This document shows, piece after piece, positions 1,059-40,400 of a stretch of DNA of 64,000 bases. The DNA comes from Clavelina lepadiformis (Eukaryota > Chordata > Ascidiacea > Aplousobranchia > Clavelinidae), in the NCBI RefSeq assembly GCF_947623445.1, contig NC_135241.1:15688501-15752500 (forward strand), read 5' to 3'. The notes under the pieces were generated by a model. The model saw nothing but the letters and a program-made list of their open reading frames with translations, ran no database searches and was not told the origin of the DNA. The position numbers and the translations under genes are program-made. Each line of letters begins with the position of its first letter. Positions within the stretch are counted from its first letter, which is position 1.

Positions 1059-1803
1059 GTTATTGGTGTGACGTTTTTCATCTTCATTTCCCCAGTTTTT
1101 TATGTATCCGTAGTATGGATGTTATATTATTTATCCCATTCAAACATACTGCCGAATATCACACACCAATATTAAACACATTATATACTTCTGTTATTCT
1201 TAAAAATTCGGATCTTACAGTTGACTGAACTACATCCTTTACTTGACAACGGAATTGTTGCGAAAAAGTTCATAAAACCCAGTTTCGTATATGTTAAAAA
1301 TAGGTTGTCAGAGAAACATAGAATTTCACACGTCTTCCCATTGGCCTTGACCAGTCAATTAATAGACAGTTTTCATTAACTTTCCTCTTTTCGTTAATAG
1401 ATTGTTTTCTGTGTATATTTCAGTACTAGAAAACATGATTACCTGGCTTGTCTCGTACCAATATTTGAATTTAATTAAGAGAAAACGTTTAATAACCAGT
1501 TTACAGATAACCGGTCGAAAATGACCGTAAGGCGTAATCGTCCTTATAGGTAGGGAAATATTTCAGGGCTTCTAGTGTTAAGCTAGGACACTAGGTGAAG
1601 CTAAACAAACGCAAAATACGCACGCTGGTCTCAACAGAGGCCAAGTCTACTGAGAAGAAATTTCAATTGCTGTTTTAAAATTTATTCGAAACCTTCTTAT
1701 TACAAGTGTTTATACAGGCTACGGTTAATTTTCCAAATACATATTTAGGATAAGCTAACTACATGTCCAAACGACACTAGAGGCGCAGTGTGGTTGTTAC
1801 TAA
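1059..1803. other. Non-coding spacer
   Basis: No convincing coding sequence, RNA gene or repeat was seen between the hAT MITE and the start of the P-like element. Confidence 0.5.
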
Positions 1804-1810
1804 CATGCGC

Positions 1811-2190
1811 CAAAGAGATTTAAACACATGAGTAGAAACTTCTCTTTTGCGCATGACGTCATGTTTGTTTCTTTTATTCTCTTGGAGCATATTCTACTTT
1901 CTCCACGGTCACGGTTCACTGCATAACAATAAACATGCAGACGACGACAATGATTTTCAGATCTGTTTGCTGCTGGAACAGATTAGTCTTATTATTACGG
2001 TGCAGTTGTTGGGATCCAATGGGTGTTAAATTTAATTGAAATTAATTAATGAAATCAGGTGAGAGTTTTAGGTTCAGCAATTAATTTAGTTTCAGTTCCT
2101 TGAACTGCTAATGCTGCTCTTTTGTATCAAGGCATGGCTTAGCCTAGCCTACTTACGTTGCACGGGAAGATTTTTTCGTTCCCCATTTCT
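1811..2190. repeat. Left long inverted repeat of the P-like element
   Basis: This arm matches 7580-7960 in reverse complement with few differences, and also matches the internal arm 6720-7090. An internal partial duplication of the arm (about 1945-2057 resembled by 2280-2352) extends the subterminal region. Confidence 0.85.
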
Positions 2191-2595
2191 CTTCGACCAG
2201 GCAATTAGCAACTAAGACTCATTAGCATAGGCCTTATGTTGAAGGTGTTGTGCTATTAAAATAGGCTACTGAAAGTCTGATTTCAGATCTTGTTATTGTA
2301 GTGCAGTTGTTGGGATCTAATGGAGGTCAATTTGAAGTTAATTATTGAAATAGATTGTGACCCAAAAGACGATGCAGCAAACTTCATGTAAGATACGATA
2401 TGTTTATTATTCAATTAGCCAACTGCTGTTGAGCTTTTCCTGTATGGCGGTCACCCAGAGGGTACGTTCTGGCCAATTTATAATAAACAAACAAGCAAAA
2501 CAACAAATTAATGTAAGTCGTAACGAATATTTGAAGAAATGTTGTACTGATATATTGATGTCATTTAATCTGATAATGAAGATATTTATTTGCAG

Positions 2596-2850
2596 ATGTG
2601 GACAATGTTTGCATAATTGCACAAGTAATGAAACTTTGCTGGCTCATCAAAAAACTGTTCACGGTATATTTGTTTAGTGTTTGAAACTTATTTCATTTGG
2701 AGCTCTATCATTGGCAGTTCCGATTAAAAAAATCAAACAAACTTAATTTTACACTTTTCTCGCAGAATCTTCTAGCACTAATATTACAAAAGAAAAGCTG
2801 ATGGAATGGTGGGAAACAGTGGGTGGCGTTCACTCGAAATCAAGTTATTT
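2596..2850 (+). pseudogene. C2H2 zinc-finger exon pair, antisense inside the P-like element
   Basis: A possible exon at 2596-2667 follows a tttatttgcag acceptor and ends at a g|gtatat donor. It encodes a finger with C-x2-C-x12-H-x4-H spacing (CGQC...HQKTVH). After a ~100-bp intron, a ttttctcgcag acceptor at about 2765 opens a second short exon in the same frame, reading ESSSTNITKEKLMEWWETVGG-like sequence and running into the antisense tail of the transposase. This looks like a fragment of a host or transposon gene captured in the element's 3' non-coding region. No start codon or complete gene was found. The splice reading is inference. Confidence 0.35.
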
Positions 2851-5800
2851 TTTTCGCTTCGGCATTGGATCATCGCAAACATCACCATGTTTCCAGTCAA
2901 TAACGTGATTTACATTTGACCCCTTAAGTGACTTGATATTCTTTTTGCACATTATCACATTTTCAAATTGTGCATATTGGTGAATATCAGGCACTTCATT
3001 TCGACGGCCAGTTTGTCTCATATGACCGAAATATGCCTCCAATGGGTCTTGGTTTAAGCGCTTAGTTAAGACGTATGAACCTTCTGGGCTGTTCTCCAAC
3101 AAGAATTTCACCAATTCAGCAATGGCCATGGATGTGGAAACTAAACCGTCGTAGGTTTGATGGCTCAGAAACTGCTTTGACTGTTCGGAAACGGACCCAG
3201 TTAAACTGCTTTTCCATTGTTTTAACTCTGAGAGGAATGTATTAAGCCATTTCAGACGAGGATCATCAATCGTTGTATATGGTTTCAAGTCTGGGTTGTA
3301 TGAATAATTTAATCTGGTGTTCATGAGGTCAAACCACTTATTCAGCAAACCACGCACTCATCTTCATTTCTTCTCCACCACGACTCTTCATTAAACTGGA
3401 GACAGTTCCAGAGAGCAATTGTGCAGCATAGCAAACCCGCATTTTTGCGTAACTCTTTTGGGAAAAATGGCCATCAGTCAACTTGCAACTTCTCAACTCT
3501 GAACTTTCAAATAGGTAGGGAACATGGCAAAAATGCTCCCACAAAATGAAATGTTGTTTGTACTTCATCATTCTAGCTCCACCTGGACGGCTGGATCTCA
3601 CACAGTTACAGGCTGTCTTCAGCAAGTGTGGAGGGTCACTAATCAAATAAATAGGCATTTCTGGCTGATAAATATTAATACACTTGTAGGGGACGGTCAA
3701 ATTGGAATTATTGAGCAATTGGAACAATTTTCGATTGCAGGATGCACCATCAGCAACAAGTGCTAAGACTGTAAAACCACATCTGGCCAAGGATTCAACC
3801 ACTTCCCAGAACATGCTAACCAAGTGAAATGCCTTTGTATTCTTGGTGGCATAAAAGACAATAGGCCGGGAAAAATTGCTAAGGATACTCCTACCATAAA
3901 ATTGTAGGGCATGTGTGGCAGGAGCTTCATTATTGTATTGTCTGTCAACACCCAGATCAACAAATCCTATTATTCGGTCTGTTGCTGCATTATACACAAT
4001 ATTTTCTTTCACTGTAAACAAAATAAGCAACATTAATATGGCAGTATTAATATTTTCTGAAGCATTATAGGCTATATCTCGTGCATATACAGTTAATAAC
4101 TTGTGTCATTGTTTTGTCATAAAGCATGAATAAGAATCTTACACAGTGTGATTAATAGTGTTAAAAATACCAAGAAAAGTTTCACCTTTCATTTCATCGA
4201 TTGATATAACGAGAAAGCGTTCATGTGATGCTAGACTGAGACTTTTGGATTTCAGTTCTTCTAAAACATTATCTTGAATGCCAGGTGCAGTGCAGTAAAC
4301 ATTTCTGAAAACAGTACAAAAGTGAGCAAGTGAAACAATTGCTCGTAGGTAGCTAGTAGTAGCCAAATTACAGAGAACTGAACCCATACGCTACCGATAG
4401 TCATTTAGGGTGCGTGAGCTTGGTAATCGTAAAATGCCACTTTGTCGTAATTCTTCATAGGCACTTTTACTTTTAGCAGCTAGACTCAAACAGAACCTTT
4501 AAAGAAAATTGCAAGGGTTGATTTTAGCATGCTTTTACGAAATAAACAAAAACTTGAGGTCAACTGAACTCAAAACATGCTCAAGGAGACCTAAACCTAC
4601 TTTATTAACTCAGGGTGATATCTTTCCCCATTTCTTTTCATACTATTTAGCTTTTGCTGCTCTTTCCAAAAGATTGAGTAGAAGTTATCAATTTTATCCT
4701 CATCTTGAGCTAAAAAAAATGTATGATATTTACGTAAACTTCACAAACACATATGACACAAAAAAGACTGAGTTATATGCATTGTGTAGGTGCATCACAT
4801 TACATTTGTAGCTTCATTAGAGTAGTTATAAGTAACATATTCTGGATTACCAGCTTTGTAATCGGTATGATACCTGCTTTAACAATGGCTGTCATGTCAT
4901 CTGACATAATTTTATCTACCTCCACTTGCACCGTATCATCAGCTAACAGAGTCGAAACCTTAGCTTCTAATTCTCTAATGCTAATAAAGATTTACTTCTT
5001 AACAACAAGACTATCTTAAATAATACTGTTTTATTTCTATCTTCTGGCATTGCACAAACTACATATAGTTAAGTGTAAAAAGCACAACTACTGACACTGC
5101 CAACCTTGCGAATGAGACTATTACCAATAGGATTACAAAGTGCAATATCACCAAATTTCATTAGCAGTAAAGGTGGAGGTAATTCGAGATGGTAGGTTAA
5201 ATGTTGGCTGCGCTGATCGTTTTAAAGGTTGATCTTTAACCATATGGTAATAATTTAGCCTTTTCTGGTTGAGGCGTCCCTCCTTTTCATCTACACTACA
5301 ACAATTCCTGCACTGACCACTTTCCTTGAGAAAAAGTTCACAACTTGCATTTCTAACAACAAGAAATTTGGTTCATTAAACAAGAAAAGTTACAAAATAA
5401 GCCTAAGATACACTGTACGCCATCTGTGTACACTTTAAGCGCAATACATTATCAGTGTTAACAAAAATGAGTAAGTATATGGTCAGTGGTGGGATTGAAA
5501 TATGTTGTTATCTATATAACAAATGAAAAATTAGTTTTACCTGTATGCAAGTTTCCTAACCGTTGGTGCATTTTCAGAACTGAATGGTGTCATTGATTTG
5601 GTAGTCATGTGTGGCAAGCCACTTCCAGAATTATCCAATCCAGAACATATTGAAAATGATTCAATATCTTTTATGGTGCCGTGTAGTGTTTGAGTAGTTA
5701 TGTCCAGGGAGTAAATACAACTTGAGCGAGGTGCTTTCCAGCCATAATAGCATATCCTTAATGACATGTCATATAATACTCCAATCGAGTATTTAGGTTG

Positions 5801-34400: not shown

Positions 34401-37400
34401 ATAATTTAAAGTTCCATTGATAGTCCAGTCAAAATAGGGTTTGACCCACCACTAATTGCAAATGTTTCGACCCTTACATTTTCTGAAAGCTTACATCATA
34501 CAGAATAACTTACTAAAAATCTGCCACGAAAAATTTAGTGGAACCCCCTTTTTAGGGGTAAAAACAAAATGGCCGCCATGTGTCCTAAAAATCTTCATTT
34601 TTCCATATTTTTTCACCTAATTCATATAATTTAGGTCTGTAAAAGAGCTCATTCTATATTTCTGGTACAGGAATCCAAAAACAGACATTGGAAAGTTGCA
34701 ATATGAGACAAAAACGTGTCTTTTTAAAATTTATAACAATTTAAAAATAAAATGGCCTCCACAAGTCCCAAAAATCTTTAATTTTTTCATATCTTTTCAT
34801 CTAATTTAGTTCTGCAAAAGACCTATGTTAATAACTCACTGTAAATCGAACATAAACCCTTAAAAAGTTTGCTAGTTTGATCATATTCATGTTTCTTCAA
34901 CTTGCAGATCAATATTTCACAAACATTACCGTTTGTATTATGACGTAACTATCGTGATAATTGCGCTGCTTTGCCTGAAAAATTTAGTTCTGCAACAGAC
35001 CTCATTCTCTATAACTGATGATCTGGGAAAGACTGTATATCCTTCTTGTAAGTGTGTTCAATTTTATTGATATCTCTACATTATGAATGAATGTGTTTTT
35101 TGCTCGAATTCTATACTGGAATGTGATGCAGCTGTGACTTTGACAGTGAAAGGTGTTGACGGAATTGTGAAAGCAAGTGCACAGAGAGGAGAAAATCTGA
35201 ACATTGTTGTTGGTCAGTCTGTACACGTGGAGTGCAGAAAACGTTACACCAATCCGAAAGCACTCTTGGTACAAATGAAAAAGCGTCAGGAAGATCAAGA
35301 TGAAGATCATGGTCAACACTCACTTCGTTCAGAATGCACTTTCTCTTACAGAGCTAGGCAGCATTGGACATTTGATGAACGGAACTGGACTTCAACAACT
35401 CTTGGAAATAGTTTATGCACCTAATTCAGTGGTCCACATGCTGTCCGGAAAAGCAGTGAGTCGCGCAGTCAGAAGACATCTTTTGGTGGGTGCAGCCCTT
35501 AATGCACTGTTAACCTCGTCAGCATTAGATATCAACTTGTCTTATATTCCTGAATCCGATGGGTGCTTTTCAGATGACCACGAACAGGACAACCACTTGA
35601 TTCTTCAGTTAAGACATCTAATGAAACGACTACTATTAGGCGCAGTGTCTCCATCAGATTTAGATCAGAATGAAGTGCTTCAGTGCTTAGAACAGAAAGT
35701 ACAGCAAACTAAAGACACCCTAAAAGAATTTAGAACAGCACGACTTTGGCTACAATACATTTCGATGGTCACAATCCTGTGCAAATTCATTAAAGCAGAG
35801 CGACTAGGCTTATGGCCATTGCATCTGCAGTCCATGTATGAAATGCTTCCGTACTTGGCAGCATCAGGTCACAATCACTATGTGAAAAGTATCCACTTGT
35901 ACCTAGCCAAGATGTCCAAACTTCAGAGTGAGATGCCTCTTGTCCACAAGCACTTCATGGAAGGACATCACGTTGTTCGTCGCACAGACAGATGCTGGGC
36001 TGGTCTCTGGACTGACCTGACAATCGAACAATGTCTAATGAGGAGCCTGAAGTCAAGGGGTGGACTTACAAGGGGGCGTGGATTGACAGAGACACAACAA
36101 CTCATCTGGGTTCTATCTGCACCAGCATGCGCCCAAGTAAATGAAACCATGCAAAAGTTCACAGGGGTGAAATTTCTCACCAGTGAGCAACACAAAGAGA
36201 GTACCCCAGCAAGGATGAGCAGAGATATGAAAGATCTTCAAGATCTAATTCAGTATTTGACAGTGAGAAATCCATTTTGAAAGGATGGCCCACCAAGCCT
36301 GAGAAGCATAGTGACAGGCATTGCAGCTCATGACAGTGTCAACTGTGACTCAGCACGGGATGTAGGTATGAAAATCCTTGCACTAATGCCTGGAGTAAAG
36401 GTGACTGAGCATTCCTTCAGAAAGAAACACCAAGCCATCACCATGGGTGCAAAAGAATCGGTCAAAGTCACGGACAGGGAAGTGAGTGTTGATCCCATCC
36501 TCCTATTTCAACGTTTAGTCTGTGCCGGCACAACAACGAATCAGCTACCAGAGGTATTCCAGTATGAACTTTGTCAATTTCCATCAGCCTTGTTTGAATC
36601 AAAGTCCATCATTAGACCAGCCAACAAGGCCTCCTTGGCTGACTTCTTGTGGTCTTCATCAATTGAGTCTGCTCCAAAACCATCTAAGCCCTTAGTCCAG
36701 CATGTACTAGATGGAGGTGCCCTGCTCCATAAACTTCCTTGGACAAAAGGAGCTGCATGGGATGAAATTATGCAGATGTACACTGATTATGTGATGTCCA
36801 AATATGGAGCCTGTATTGTTGTGTTTGATGGTTACACAGATTCGCCTTCCACAAAAGATGGTGCTCACTTCCGAAGAACTGTTGGTAGGATTGGGGCTGA
36901 AGTAATCTTCGATCCAACAATGAAGCTCCAAACCAAAAAGGAAGACTTTCTTGCTAACCATAAAAATAAACAGCGACTAATCCATATGATAGGGGACAGA
37001 CTCGAAAGAGCAGGATGTGTTGTCCACCATGCCAGAGGAGATGCAGATGTCTTGATAGTAGAAACCGCGATGCCATCTGCACAGCAACAAGACACTGTAG
37101 TTTTAGCAAGTGATACTGACATTCTGATTTTGCTCATACATTACAAGAACAGTAATACCACACACAACATCTGGTTCCAAACAGCATCTAAAAAGGGCAC
37201 TAAAAAACCATCAAAGTGCTGGAACATTTCAGTCACCAGAAAACGTCTTGGAGACACTGTGTCAAATAATCTTCTCTTTGCCCATGCACTGTTGGGATGT
37301 GATACCACTTCAAGGGTATTTGGAATAGGCAAACAGAAAGCTGTTACAAAACTAAGAACTGATGAAAACTTCAGAACAGCTGCAGCAACTTTCATGTCAT

Positions 37401-40400
37401 TCTCTGCAAATGCAAATGATGTTGTAAAAGCAGGGAAGTTGGCTCTAATTGCCATGTACAATGGAAGGCAAGATGACAATCTTGACGATCTAAGATATCA
37501 AATTTTCTGTGGAAAGACAGCAAGAAGTACGACTGCAGTAGACCCATGTTCTCTTCCTCCCACGTCATCAGCAGCGAGGTTTCACAGTCTCAGGGTATAT
37601 CATCAAGTGCAGGTGTGGCTGGGTCATGAGACAGATGTGCCACCGTAACAGTGGGGTTGGCGTTTTAGTGAAGGCAGTCTGGTGCCTGTGATGACAGACA
37701 AACCTCCAGCTCCATCTCAGTTCCTGGAAATGATTGTCTGCAACTGCAAGACCGGCTGTTCTACACTTCGATGCACATGCCGGAAATCTGGTTTAGAATG
37801 TACAGTTGCATGTGGTGAATGTCATGGGTTATGTTCAAATTCGTCATTAGGCCTAGTGGAAGACATTGACTCTGATGATGATGCCTTGATTTGAACTATT
37901 AATTGTTTGATAAAATTAGGTCTTTTACAGAACTAAATTGTGCGAATTAGGTTAAACGATAAGGAAAAACGAAGATTTTTGAGACTCATGGCGGCCATTT
38001 TATTTTTAAATTATGTTATAAAATTTTATTAAGACAAATTTTTATCTCATTTTTCAACTTTCCAGTGTCTGTTTATAAATTCCTTGTACCAGAAATATAG
38101 AACGAGCTCTTTTACAGAACTAAATTACATGAATTAGGTGAAAAGATACGTTAAAATGAAGATTTTTGGGACACATGGCGGCCATTTTGTTTTTACCCCC
38201 AAAAAGGGGGTTCCACTAAATTTTTCGCAGCAGATTTTTAGTATGTTATTCTGTATGATGTAAGCTTTCAGAAAATGTATGGGTCAAAACATTTGCAATT
38301 AGTGGTGGGTCAAACCCTATTTTGAGACGGATTGACTGGACTATGAAACCTGTCACAGAAACACAAACTGACACAAAAAAATATGTTTCAGAGAAGTAAT
38401 CTCAGAGGCCGAATTACCCAAGCTGTAAGACCTCTGAAAGCTGGTAAGGCGGCTTGATGTGATGAAATCAGGCCTGAAATGTTGAAGGCCATGAACTTAG
38501 GAGAAATCCTCTGGCTGACCTGTGTTTGTCAAGTGGCAAGGAGTTCAGGTAAAACACAAAGAGATTGGCAAATAGGTGTTATCATTCCAATACACAAGAA
38601 GGGTGACAAGAAGGAATGTTCTAATTATCGGGGCATTTATCTGCTTAGTCTACCTGGTAAGATGTATGTCAAATGTCTTGAAAAATGATGCTGGGATATA
38701 ATTAAAACACAACTTGAGGAAAAATGGGGTGGTTTTCGTGCCAGTCGGAGCACAACAAATCAAATTTTCACGCTTAAGCAAATTTTCAAAAAGTCAAGGG
38801 AATATGCAAAAGATACTTCAATGATCTCGAAAAAGCGTATTTTGATCGAGTTCCTTGAGATACGCTCTGGATAGTATTGTATTGATGGTAGCTTACTAGT
38901 AGTCATTAAATCAATGTACAATTGCCCTAAACTTTTATGTTGGTTTGAACAGTGTTAAGTTAAAACCTTCCACAATGGATGTTGGACTTTGCCAGGGGTA
39001 TGTGCTGTCACCTCTCCTTTTCATAGTTTACATGAACTGGATAGACAGGCACAGCCTTGGCGAAGAGTGTATCATGGTTGGAAGCAGTAGGATCCGTCAT
39101 TCGACGTTTGCAGATGACCTAGTCCTTCTTTCTTCTTCAGAACCTGATCTTCTATTGATTTGCAACAGTTTGCAATGAGCCCGGGATGAAAATAAGCATA
39201 AAGAAAACTGATGTACTTTGCCTACCAAGAAATCACGATCAATGCTCACTGCAAGTGTGCAGAGAAACACCAAAACAGGTAGAGATGTTCAGGTAAGTGT
39301 TCAGGTAAGTGCAATTCACAAGTGATGGAAAGCAGAATACTAAATCAGACACCCAAATTGGTTAAGCAAGTGCAGTCATGCGTGAGCTTCAACGTTCGAT
39401 TGTCATGAAGCAAGAGCTTTCTAAGACCACAAAGCTCTCAATTTTTAAGTCAATTTTCCTTCCAATTCTCTCCAATGGTCATGAAACTTGGATAATGACT
39501 GGAAGAGTGCGCTCATAGGTGCTGCCTTCAGATATGGAATTTTTAAAAAGAGTCTATGTAGTTACGTTACTAGATCAAATGTGTGGCACAGATATCTGTA
39601 AATCTCTAAATGTTGAGATTTACTAAACTTCTTCGAATTGAGAGGTCCCAACTATGATGGTTTGCTCATGTTTTGGTCACCAGAATGCCCCAGGAAAGAC
39701 TTGCAAACCATGTCATTCTTGCTGCACCAACTGGTAAATGACCAATGGGTTGACCAAGAACCAGTTGTTACAACTACATCACTGACTTGGTCTGGTTACG
39801 GCTAGGTGTCCCTTTAGTCAAACCGACAGACATGGCAAAACATTCCTGACATGTTCCGGAGCTTCTAGAGCTGTTGTCGCCACGACCCTCCTGAGAGGAT
39901 AAAGCCTGTTTTGAAAGAGAGAGATCAAAATATAAATAAGCAGCTGCCAATTAATCGCAACTGACTGGTATTTGAAGGTTGATATTTACATCCCTGGTTA
40001 ATACAAGTAATTAAAGTGCTTATTTACTTTGAGTGCCAGCAAGAAAGAAGTGCAGCCTTGATGAGTCATAAAGATAAAAGTTTATGGTCCTCCCATCAAA
40101 CACTTAACCCTTTACAACTTGAAATATAATACAAAAAAAATCATCAATTCCATTGCGACATTTGTAAACTTATTTTCTAATTTGTGGCACAAGGTGCTAC
40201 ACTAGGGTTAAGCTTTGGTGTAAGCAAAATATTTTCTCTCAGTACTTGTATAGTTGCATCATCTGCAGTAATACTGTTAACATCTATACTGTTAGGACAC
40301 CCCACATCTGATTACATTTTTTTAATGTTGCATCAAGACAATCAATTTTGTTTTTCTAGAAAATAACCCCAGCTTTTCTCAACATTATAAATATTTAGGA

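Follow-up and report, generated by a model that had tools for sequence, protein, structure and literature searches.

An internally deleted transposon of Clavelina lepadiformis with a FEN1-type nuclease, and the putative DDE core kept by its relatives

Introduction

A 64,000-nucleotide stretch of the Clavelina lepadiformis genome (NC_135241.1, positions 15,688,501 to 15,752,500; hereafter the window) carries a 3,923-bp mobile element at 34421-38343. The only gene of this element was read in a preliminary description as a FEN1/XPG-like nuclease standing in the place of a DDE (aspartate-aspartate-glutamate) transposase, and the question raised by the locus is how an element equipped with a repair-type nuclease could have moved. 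The window copy was compared with its relatives in the host assembly (209 Mb, 95 contigs). It is most probably a cut-and-paste transposon of AcademX type that has suffered an internal deletion, AcademX being compared by description only, and its full protein would join a putative DDE core to a FEN1-type nuclease; the transposase seemed absent because the window copy had lost the middle of its gene. The AcademX nuclease is of the XPG type, and a cysteine-rich region is a feature of Academ; among the Academ DNA transposons, AcademX is said to be the lineage that bears the nuclease (work attributed to Kapitonov and Jurka, and to Kojima 2020).

Results

Internal deletion of the window copy

The gene had been placed at 35300-37894. 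The nuclease frame does lie there, as a single frame with two in-frame stops, and a Cys/His-rich N-terminal piece begins upstream of it in a different frame, severed from it by an internal deletion (Table 1). The N-terminal frame ends at 35353/35354, where it is joined out of frame to the residue after GGFHTMMSY. Missing at this junction are the second Cys pair, a linker, both aspartate blocks (ADNxDH, then ITLDQ) and GGFH. Because the deletion joins frames out of register, and because of the two stops, the window copy is unable to make the full protein and, judged by its sequence, is a non-autonomous, internally deleted element.

At least eight copies of its family (F1) were found in the host genome, the seven siblings being 97.3-99.0% identical to the window copy over ~592 nt of the 3' coding part. 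Beyond the junction, L010 and L012 run on at the left side and L009 at the right side. Only L009, among the eight F1 copies, keeps QYSADNVDHNLHSIDGYGTFHGMG and CPVITLDQPLWLKSF...LGGFH, both blocks being absent from the window; it has frame breaks of its own. A nuclease ‘instead of’ a DDE transposase is therefore not supported and looks like an artefact of one copy: the first two acidic blocks of the putative DDE core were deleted from it and are kept in L009 and in two related families, F2 and F3 (below). A nuclease-only transposon is rejected because these missing blocks exist there.

Exact 3-bp duplications were found at six of the seven F1 copies with both ends in hand (TGA in the window, ATA in L010, CTT in L011, TTA in L012, TAT in L013 and TTA in L014). 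The left end of L009, the eighth copy, lay outside the fetched stretch, and this copy was left out of the count.

Intact copies and empty sites had been proposed as objects of a host-genome search; the empty sites (described below) and the F1 copies were recovered, and none of the eight was intact. F1 copies are 97-99% alike in the 3' part, yet their internal deletions and frame breaks differ and no copy has all coding blocks. F1 may be a young family whose autonomous source has been lost or is absent from the assembly. A further deleted F1 copy was located at G000:C2:15789721-15792844; it shares a contig with the window copy and lies ~63 kb away, possibly the result of a local hop. The nuclease-coding part of L014 (G000:C3:10154700-10162700) is interrupted by a 2.8-kb nested insertion with an 8-bp duplication (ACACTGTG), which is hAT-like by the length of its duplication. 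No swarm of short derivatives was seen: the exact 12-mer of the end occurs at 31 sites, against 31 for the reversed control.

Related families

The nuclease query gave 40 matches in the host genome, and those that were read belonged to F1 and to two divergent families, F2 (~38% identical; e.g., L025) and F3 (~32% identical; e.g., L029, with the 801-aa open frame P0001). Identity among the three families was 31-40% in the pieces compared, and all three are repeated in the host genome. F3 ends begin with TAGTCC, as do F1 ends, and exact 3-bp duplications flank five of six paired F3 copies, hence 11 of the 13 paired copies of F1 and F3 together; duplications of this length agree with the XPG-bearing Academ lineage named in the preliminary description. 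Pieced together from different copies, F2 and F3 have the domain order N-terminal Cys/His pairs (seen in L042 and L063), first aspartate block (D1; F2 L060, F3 L044 and L063), second aspartate block (D2), glutamate block (E), nuclease and C-terminal cysteine block. Assembled from several copies and families, the protein would run from the Cys/His pairs through a putative DDE core and a FEN1-like nuclease to the CXC block. No relatives were found in the viral contig scans or in one genome-contig scan.

Capture of a host FEN1-family gene as cargo by a non-autonomous inverted-repeat element would suit a window copy that is defective and non-autonomous, but is made extremely improbable by the identical domain order and shared flanking domains of three divergent, repeated families.

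As candidate F2 termini, TACGGTAG was rejected: it occurs at 57 places (reversed control 0), in pairs ~2-10 kb apart, and at none of the other F2 places. In L047 (G000:C3:7903800-7910500, 1610-5372) an F2 coding region lies inside ~200-bp TACGGTAG inverted repeats with the 6-bp GAAAAG outside. These repeats belong to another element and are therefore not usable as F2 ends; the arrangement may be one of nesting or of capture. The same coding segment is present on both strands in the F2 copies at G000:C4:10592871-10595144, C6:14093529-14095978 and C6:372177-374620, as if palindromic derivatives may have formed.

Putative DDE core

The D1 block was matched between F1 and F2 at E=7e-18 and between F3 and F2 at E=6e-8, and ADN-x-DH...DG is invariant in five rows (three F2, one F1, one F3). 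The D2 block, [FL]DQ (T-F/L-DQ), was found in F1 L009, F2 L060 and F3 L037 and P0001, with deviations to FEQ in the F2 copy L059 and to FDL in L048, a fourth relative. The E block is present in F1, F2 and F3, its version in L009 being IEK. Pieces of F2 L025 and L036 and of F3 P0001 were matched weakly by Pfam DUF6589, below the cut-off (E 1.3e-4, 4.8e-4 and 4.2e-3); the window, L010 and L035 pieces were unmatched by it, and a whole-genome search with DUF6589 gave no match, the controls likewise none. In an AlphaFold model of a core fragment spanning D1 and D2, ten-residue confidence means of 50-76 were confined to residues ~221-290, around D2, where helix-strand-D2-helix-strand was predicted.

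By its D...D...E order the upstream core is read as a putative DDE transposase, for which an RNase-H fold and catalysis would be expected. This reading draws on the motif order, on conservation in three families, on inverted repeats flanked by duplications of a constant 3 bp and on the placing of Academ among the DDD/E superfamilies in the excerpted text of PMC9587614. The preliminary description had pointed to 35400-36280 as the region in which an RNase-H fold would speak against a nuclease in the place of the transposase. No such fold was recovered there; the region covers just the C-terminal half of this core, and its AlphaFold model gave no clear fold.

FEN1-type nuclease

The acidic motifs named in the preliminary description are present, and seven acidic positions are invariant across F1, F2 and F3. 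When a profile of the three families was compared with the PDB, the best four hits were human EXO1 (E 0.008-0.085). The aligned stretch includes six of the seven acidic positions; the first (codon at 36710) is identified by where it stands and by the motif order of the family. A PDB search with a single nuclease sequence gave no match. In the AlphaFold model of P0001, ten-residue means of at least 75 were reached in 21 of 30 blocks over residues 451-750, and the top 24 Foldseek hits of this model were FEN1, XPG/Rad2, EXO1, T5 and mycobacterial flap nucleases and Rat1 (prob 0.98-1.00). Taken together, the conserved residues, the profile and the predicted fold make membership of the FEN1/XPG/EXO1 family well supported, and a corresponding activity is predicted. 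Human EXO1, FEN1 and XPG have the nuclease fold and the order of acidic motifs in common with the element nuclease, which, unlike these cellular enzymes, is fused to a transposon protein and has D-A-D where EXO1 has E-A-D (glutamate to aspartate).

The nuclease might itself be the transposase, with the upstream domain merely binding DNA or serving as a scaffold. Inverted repeats together with a constant stagger of 3 bp typically point to DDE enzymes, and we know of no strand transferase in the FEN1 family; both count against this explanation. Structure comparison returned the nuclease as the sole enzyme fold, the upstream model being poor, but the upstream D, D and E blocks have been kept in three families that are 31-40% identical and Academ is listed as DDD/E (excerpt of PMC9587614), which leaves a nuclease acting as transposase very unlikely.

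Element ends, target site and host repeat

Both ends of the element were confirmed. The arms (405 and 427 nt, earlier given as ~430 bp) have 367 identities in 404 aligned columns, with 24 further gap positions, and the unit structure agrees with that first described, including the TGA duplication and the ends at 34421 and 38343. For the empty site, the flanks of the element were joined with one TGA and searched in the host genome, which gave 40 scored matches among 61 candidates, two of the 40 being the element's own flanks. The junction was crossed by 29 of the remaining 38, places at which the host repeat, first described as a long interspersed nuclear element (LINE) that becomes continuous on removal of the element, does run through. 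In base-by-base alignments of six junction-crossing places the site reads ATTGA in L066, L067 and L068 and TGA in L069; L070 and L071 deviate at the insertion site. The interrupted repeat looks LINE-like because RVT_1 was hit, below threshold, in two of three scanned pieces of its relatives (E 8.5e-4 and 4.2e-4).

The features of the window copy are collected in Table 1. The C-terminal Cys-rich block of the preliminary description was recovered; its Pfam hits were below the cut-off (TCR, E=0.071; preSET_CXC, E=0.18), as was that of the N-terminal piece (zf-C2H2_ZFAND2, E=0.17).

Table 1. Features of the window copy (positions in the window).
Feature	Position	Strand	Remarks
Left target-site duplication	34418..34420		TGA
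Left terminal inverted repeat	34421..34825	+	405 nt; first letters TAGTCCAGTCAA
N-terminal coding piece (MNECVFC...); its Cys/His pairs are putative zinc fingers	35083..35352	+	severed by internal deletion
Internal deletion junction	35353..35354	+	
C-terminal part of putative DDE domain	35357..36277	+	helical insertion and glutamate block WAGLWTDLTIEQ; E codon 36026-36028
In-frame stop codon	36278..36280	+	
FEN1/XPG/EXO1-type nuclease domain	36680..37360	+	acidic codons start at 36710, 36827, 37040, 37046, 37112, 37118, 37301
In-frame stop codon	37646..37648	+	
C-terminal cysteine block, CXC/tesmin-like	37739..37834	+	nine Cys
Right terminal inverted repeat	37917..38343	-	427 nt
Right target-site duplication	38344..38346		TGA

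Discussion

Several results weigh against a transposon protein in which a DDE core and a FEN1-type nuclease are joined. D1, D2, E and the nuclease were found in one open frame in none of the eight F1 copies, and all blocks in one open frame in none of the F2 and F3 copies read (not every copy in full). The AlphaFold model of the piece with D1 and D2 had a mean predicted local distance difference test (pLDDT) score of 39.1, and Foldseek with this poor model gave nothing at E<=0.001; the D2-to-E part of the P0001 model was all helix, mostly at low confidence, and profiles of the core returned chance-level PDB hits and no RNase-H chain. On the nuclease side, only two Foldseek hits were at E<=0.001 and the template modelling scores (TMt) of the top 24 were 0.24-0.49, low because the alignments probably extend into weak parts of the model; Pfam XPG_N was sub-threshold (E 0.11 and 0.064). 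The duplication is mismatched at one base in L015 (F1) and is also mismatched at C6:12953347 (F3).

In the excerpted text of PMC10045372, AcademX duplications are 3-4 bp and those of AcademH 9-10 bp, a difference apparently tied to nuclease versus helicase. The window element has in common with AcademX, known here by description, the inverted repeats, 3-bp duplications, XPG/FEN1-type nuclease and Cys-rich block, and differs from it in nothing shown besides the internal deletion of the window copy. As first described, no helicase was seen: none was among the Pfam hits of the scanned pieces, all copies read being incomplete. AcademH would belong to the same superfamily if the filing under Academ is right, and differs in its helicase and in duplications of 9-10 bp against 3 bp in the window family (excerpt of PMC10045372). 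The core's Pfam matches are limited to the weak, below cut-off DUF6589 hits (E 1.3e-4 to 4.2e-3) and the likeness to Academ comes from descriptions rather than from Repbase proteins or termini, so a nuclease-bearing DDE transposon of another superfamily deserves consideration; we hold it to be quite unlikely, given that the nuclease and the 3-bp duplications fit the AcademX description in the part of PMC10045372 drawn on. The window copy is shorter than the bivalve Academ mean of 5,565 bp, taken over 100 curated consensuses in the excerpted text of PMC10294476. KolobokE, KolobokD and KolobokP likewise combine, within a single element, a DDD/E transposase and an additional nuclease, these nucleases being PD-D/ExK, DEDDh or His-Me finger rather than FEN1/XPG as in the window element (excerpt of PMC9587614). 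A literature search, with Kojima 2020 outside its coverage, gave no paper treating Academ and the XPG nuclease in detail.

For the putative protein in which core and nuclease are joined, the N-terminal Cys/His pairs would act as zinc fingers binding the inverted repeats, and the D...D...E core would cleave the ends and transfer the strands with a 3-bp stagger by DDE/RNase-H chemistry. The most likely task of the FEN1/XPG-type 5'-nuclease would be to cut or trim 5' DNA, either the non-transferred strands where the element ends or the flaps that integration leaves behind. Tn7 splits cutting between TnsB and TnsA, and a single-chain eukaryotic counterpart is proposed by this analogy: cutting could be divided within one protein, the DDE core cutting and joining 3' strands and the FEN1-type domain cutting 5' strands. 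We regard this particular division of labour as tentative and, on balance, unlikely. Both acidic sets are kept in families 31-40% identical, and this suggests that both are needed.

A transposon that seemed to move by a repair-type nuclease while lacking any transposase is thus no longer an anomaly, since the one copy concerned has suffered a deletion. In three related families of one genome the FEN1-type nuclease remains joined to a putative DDE core, the acidic residues of both being conserved, and this conserved pairing makes the nuclease's part in movement open to mutational test.

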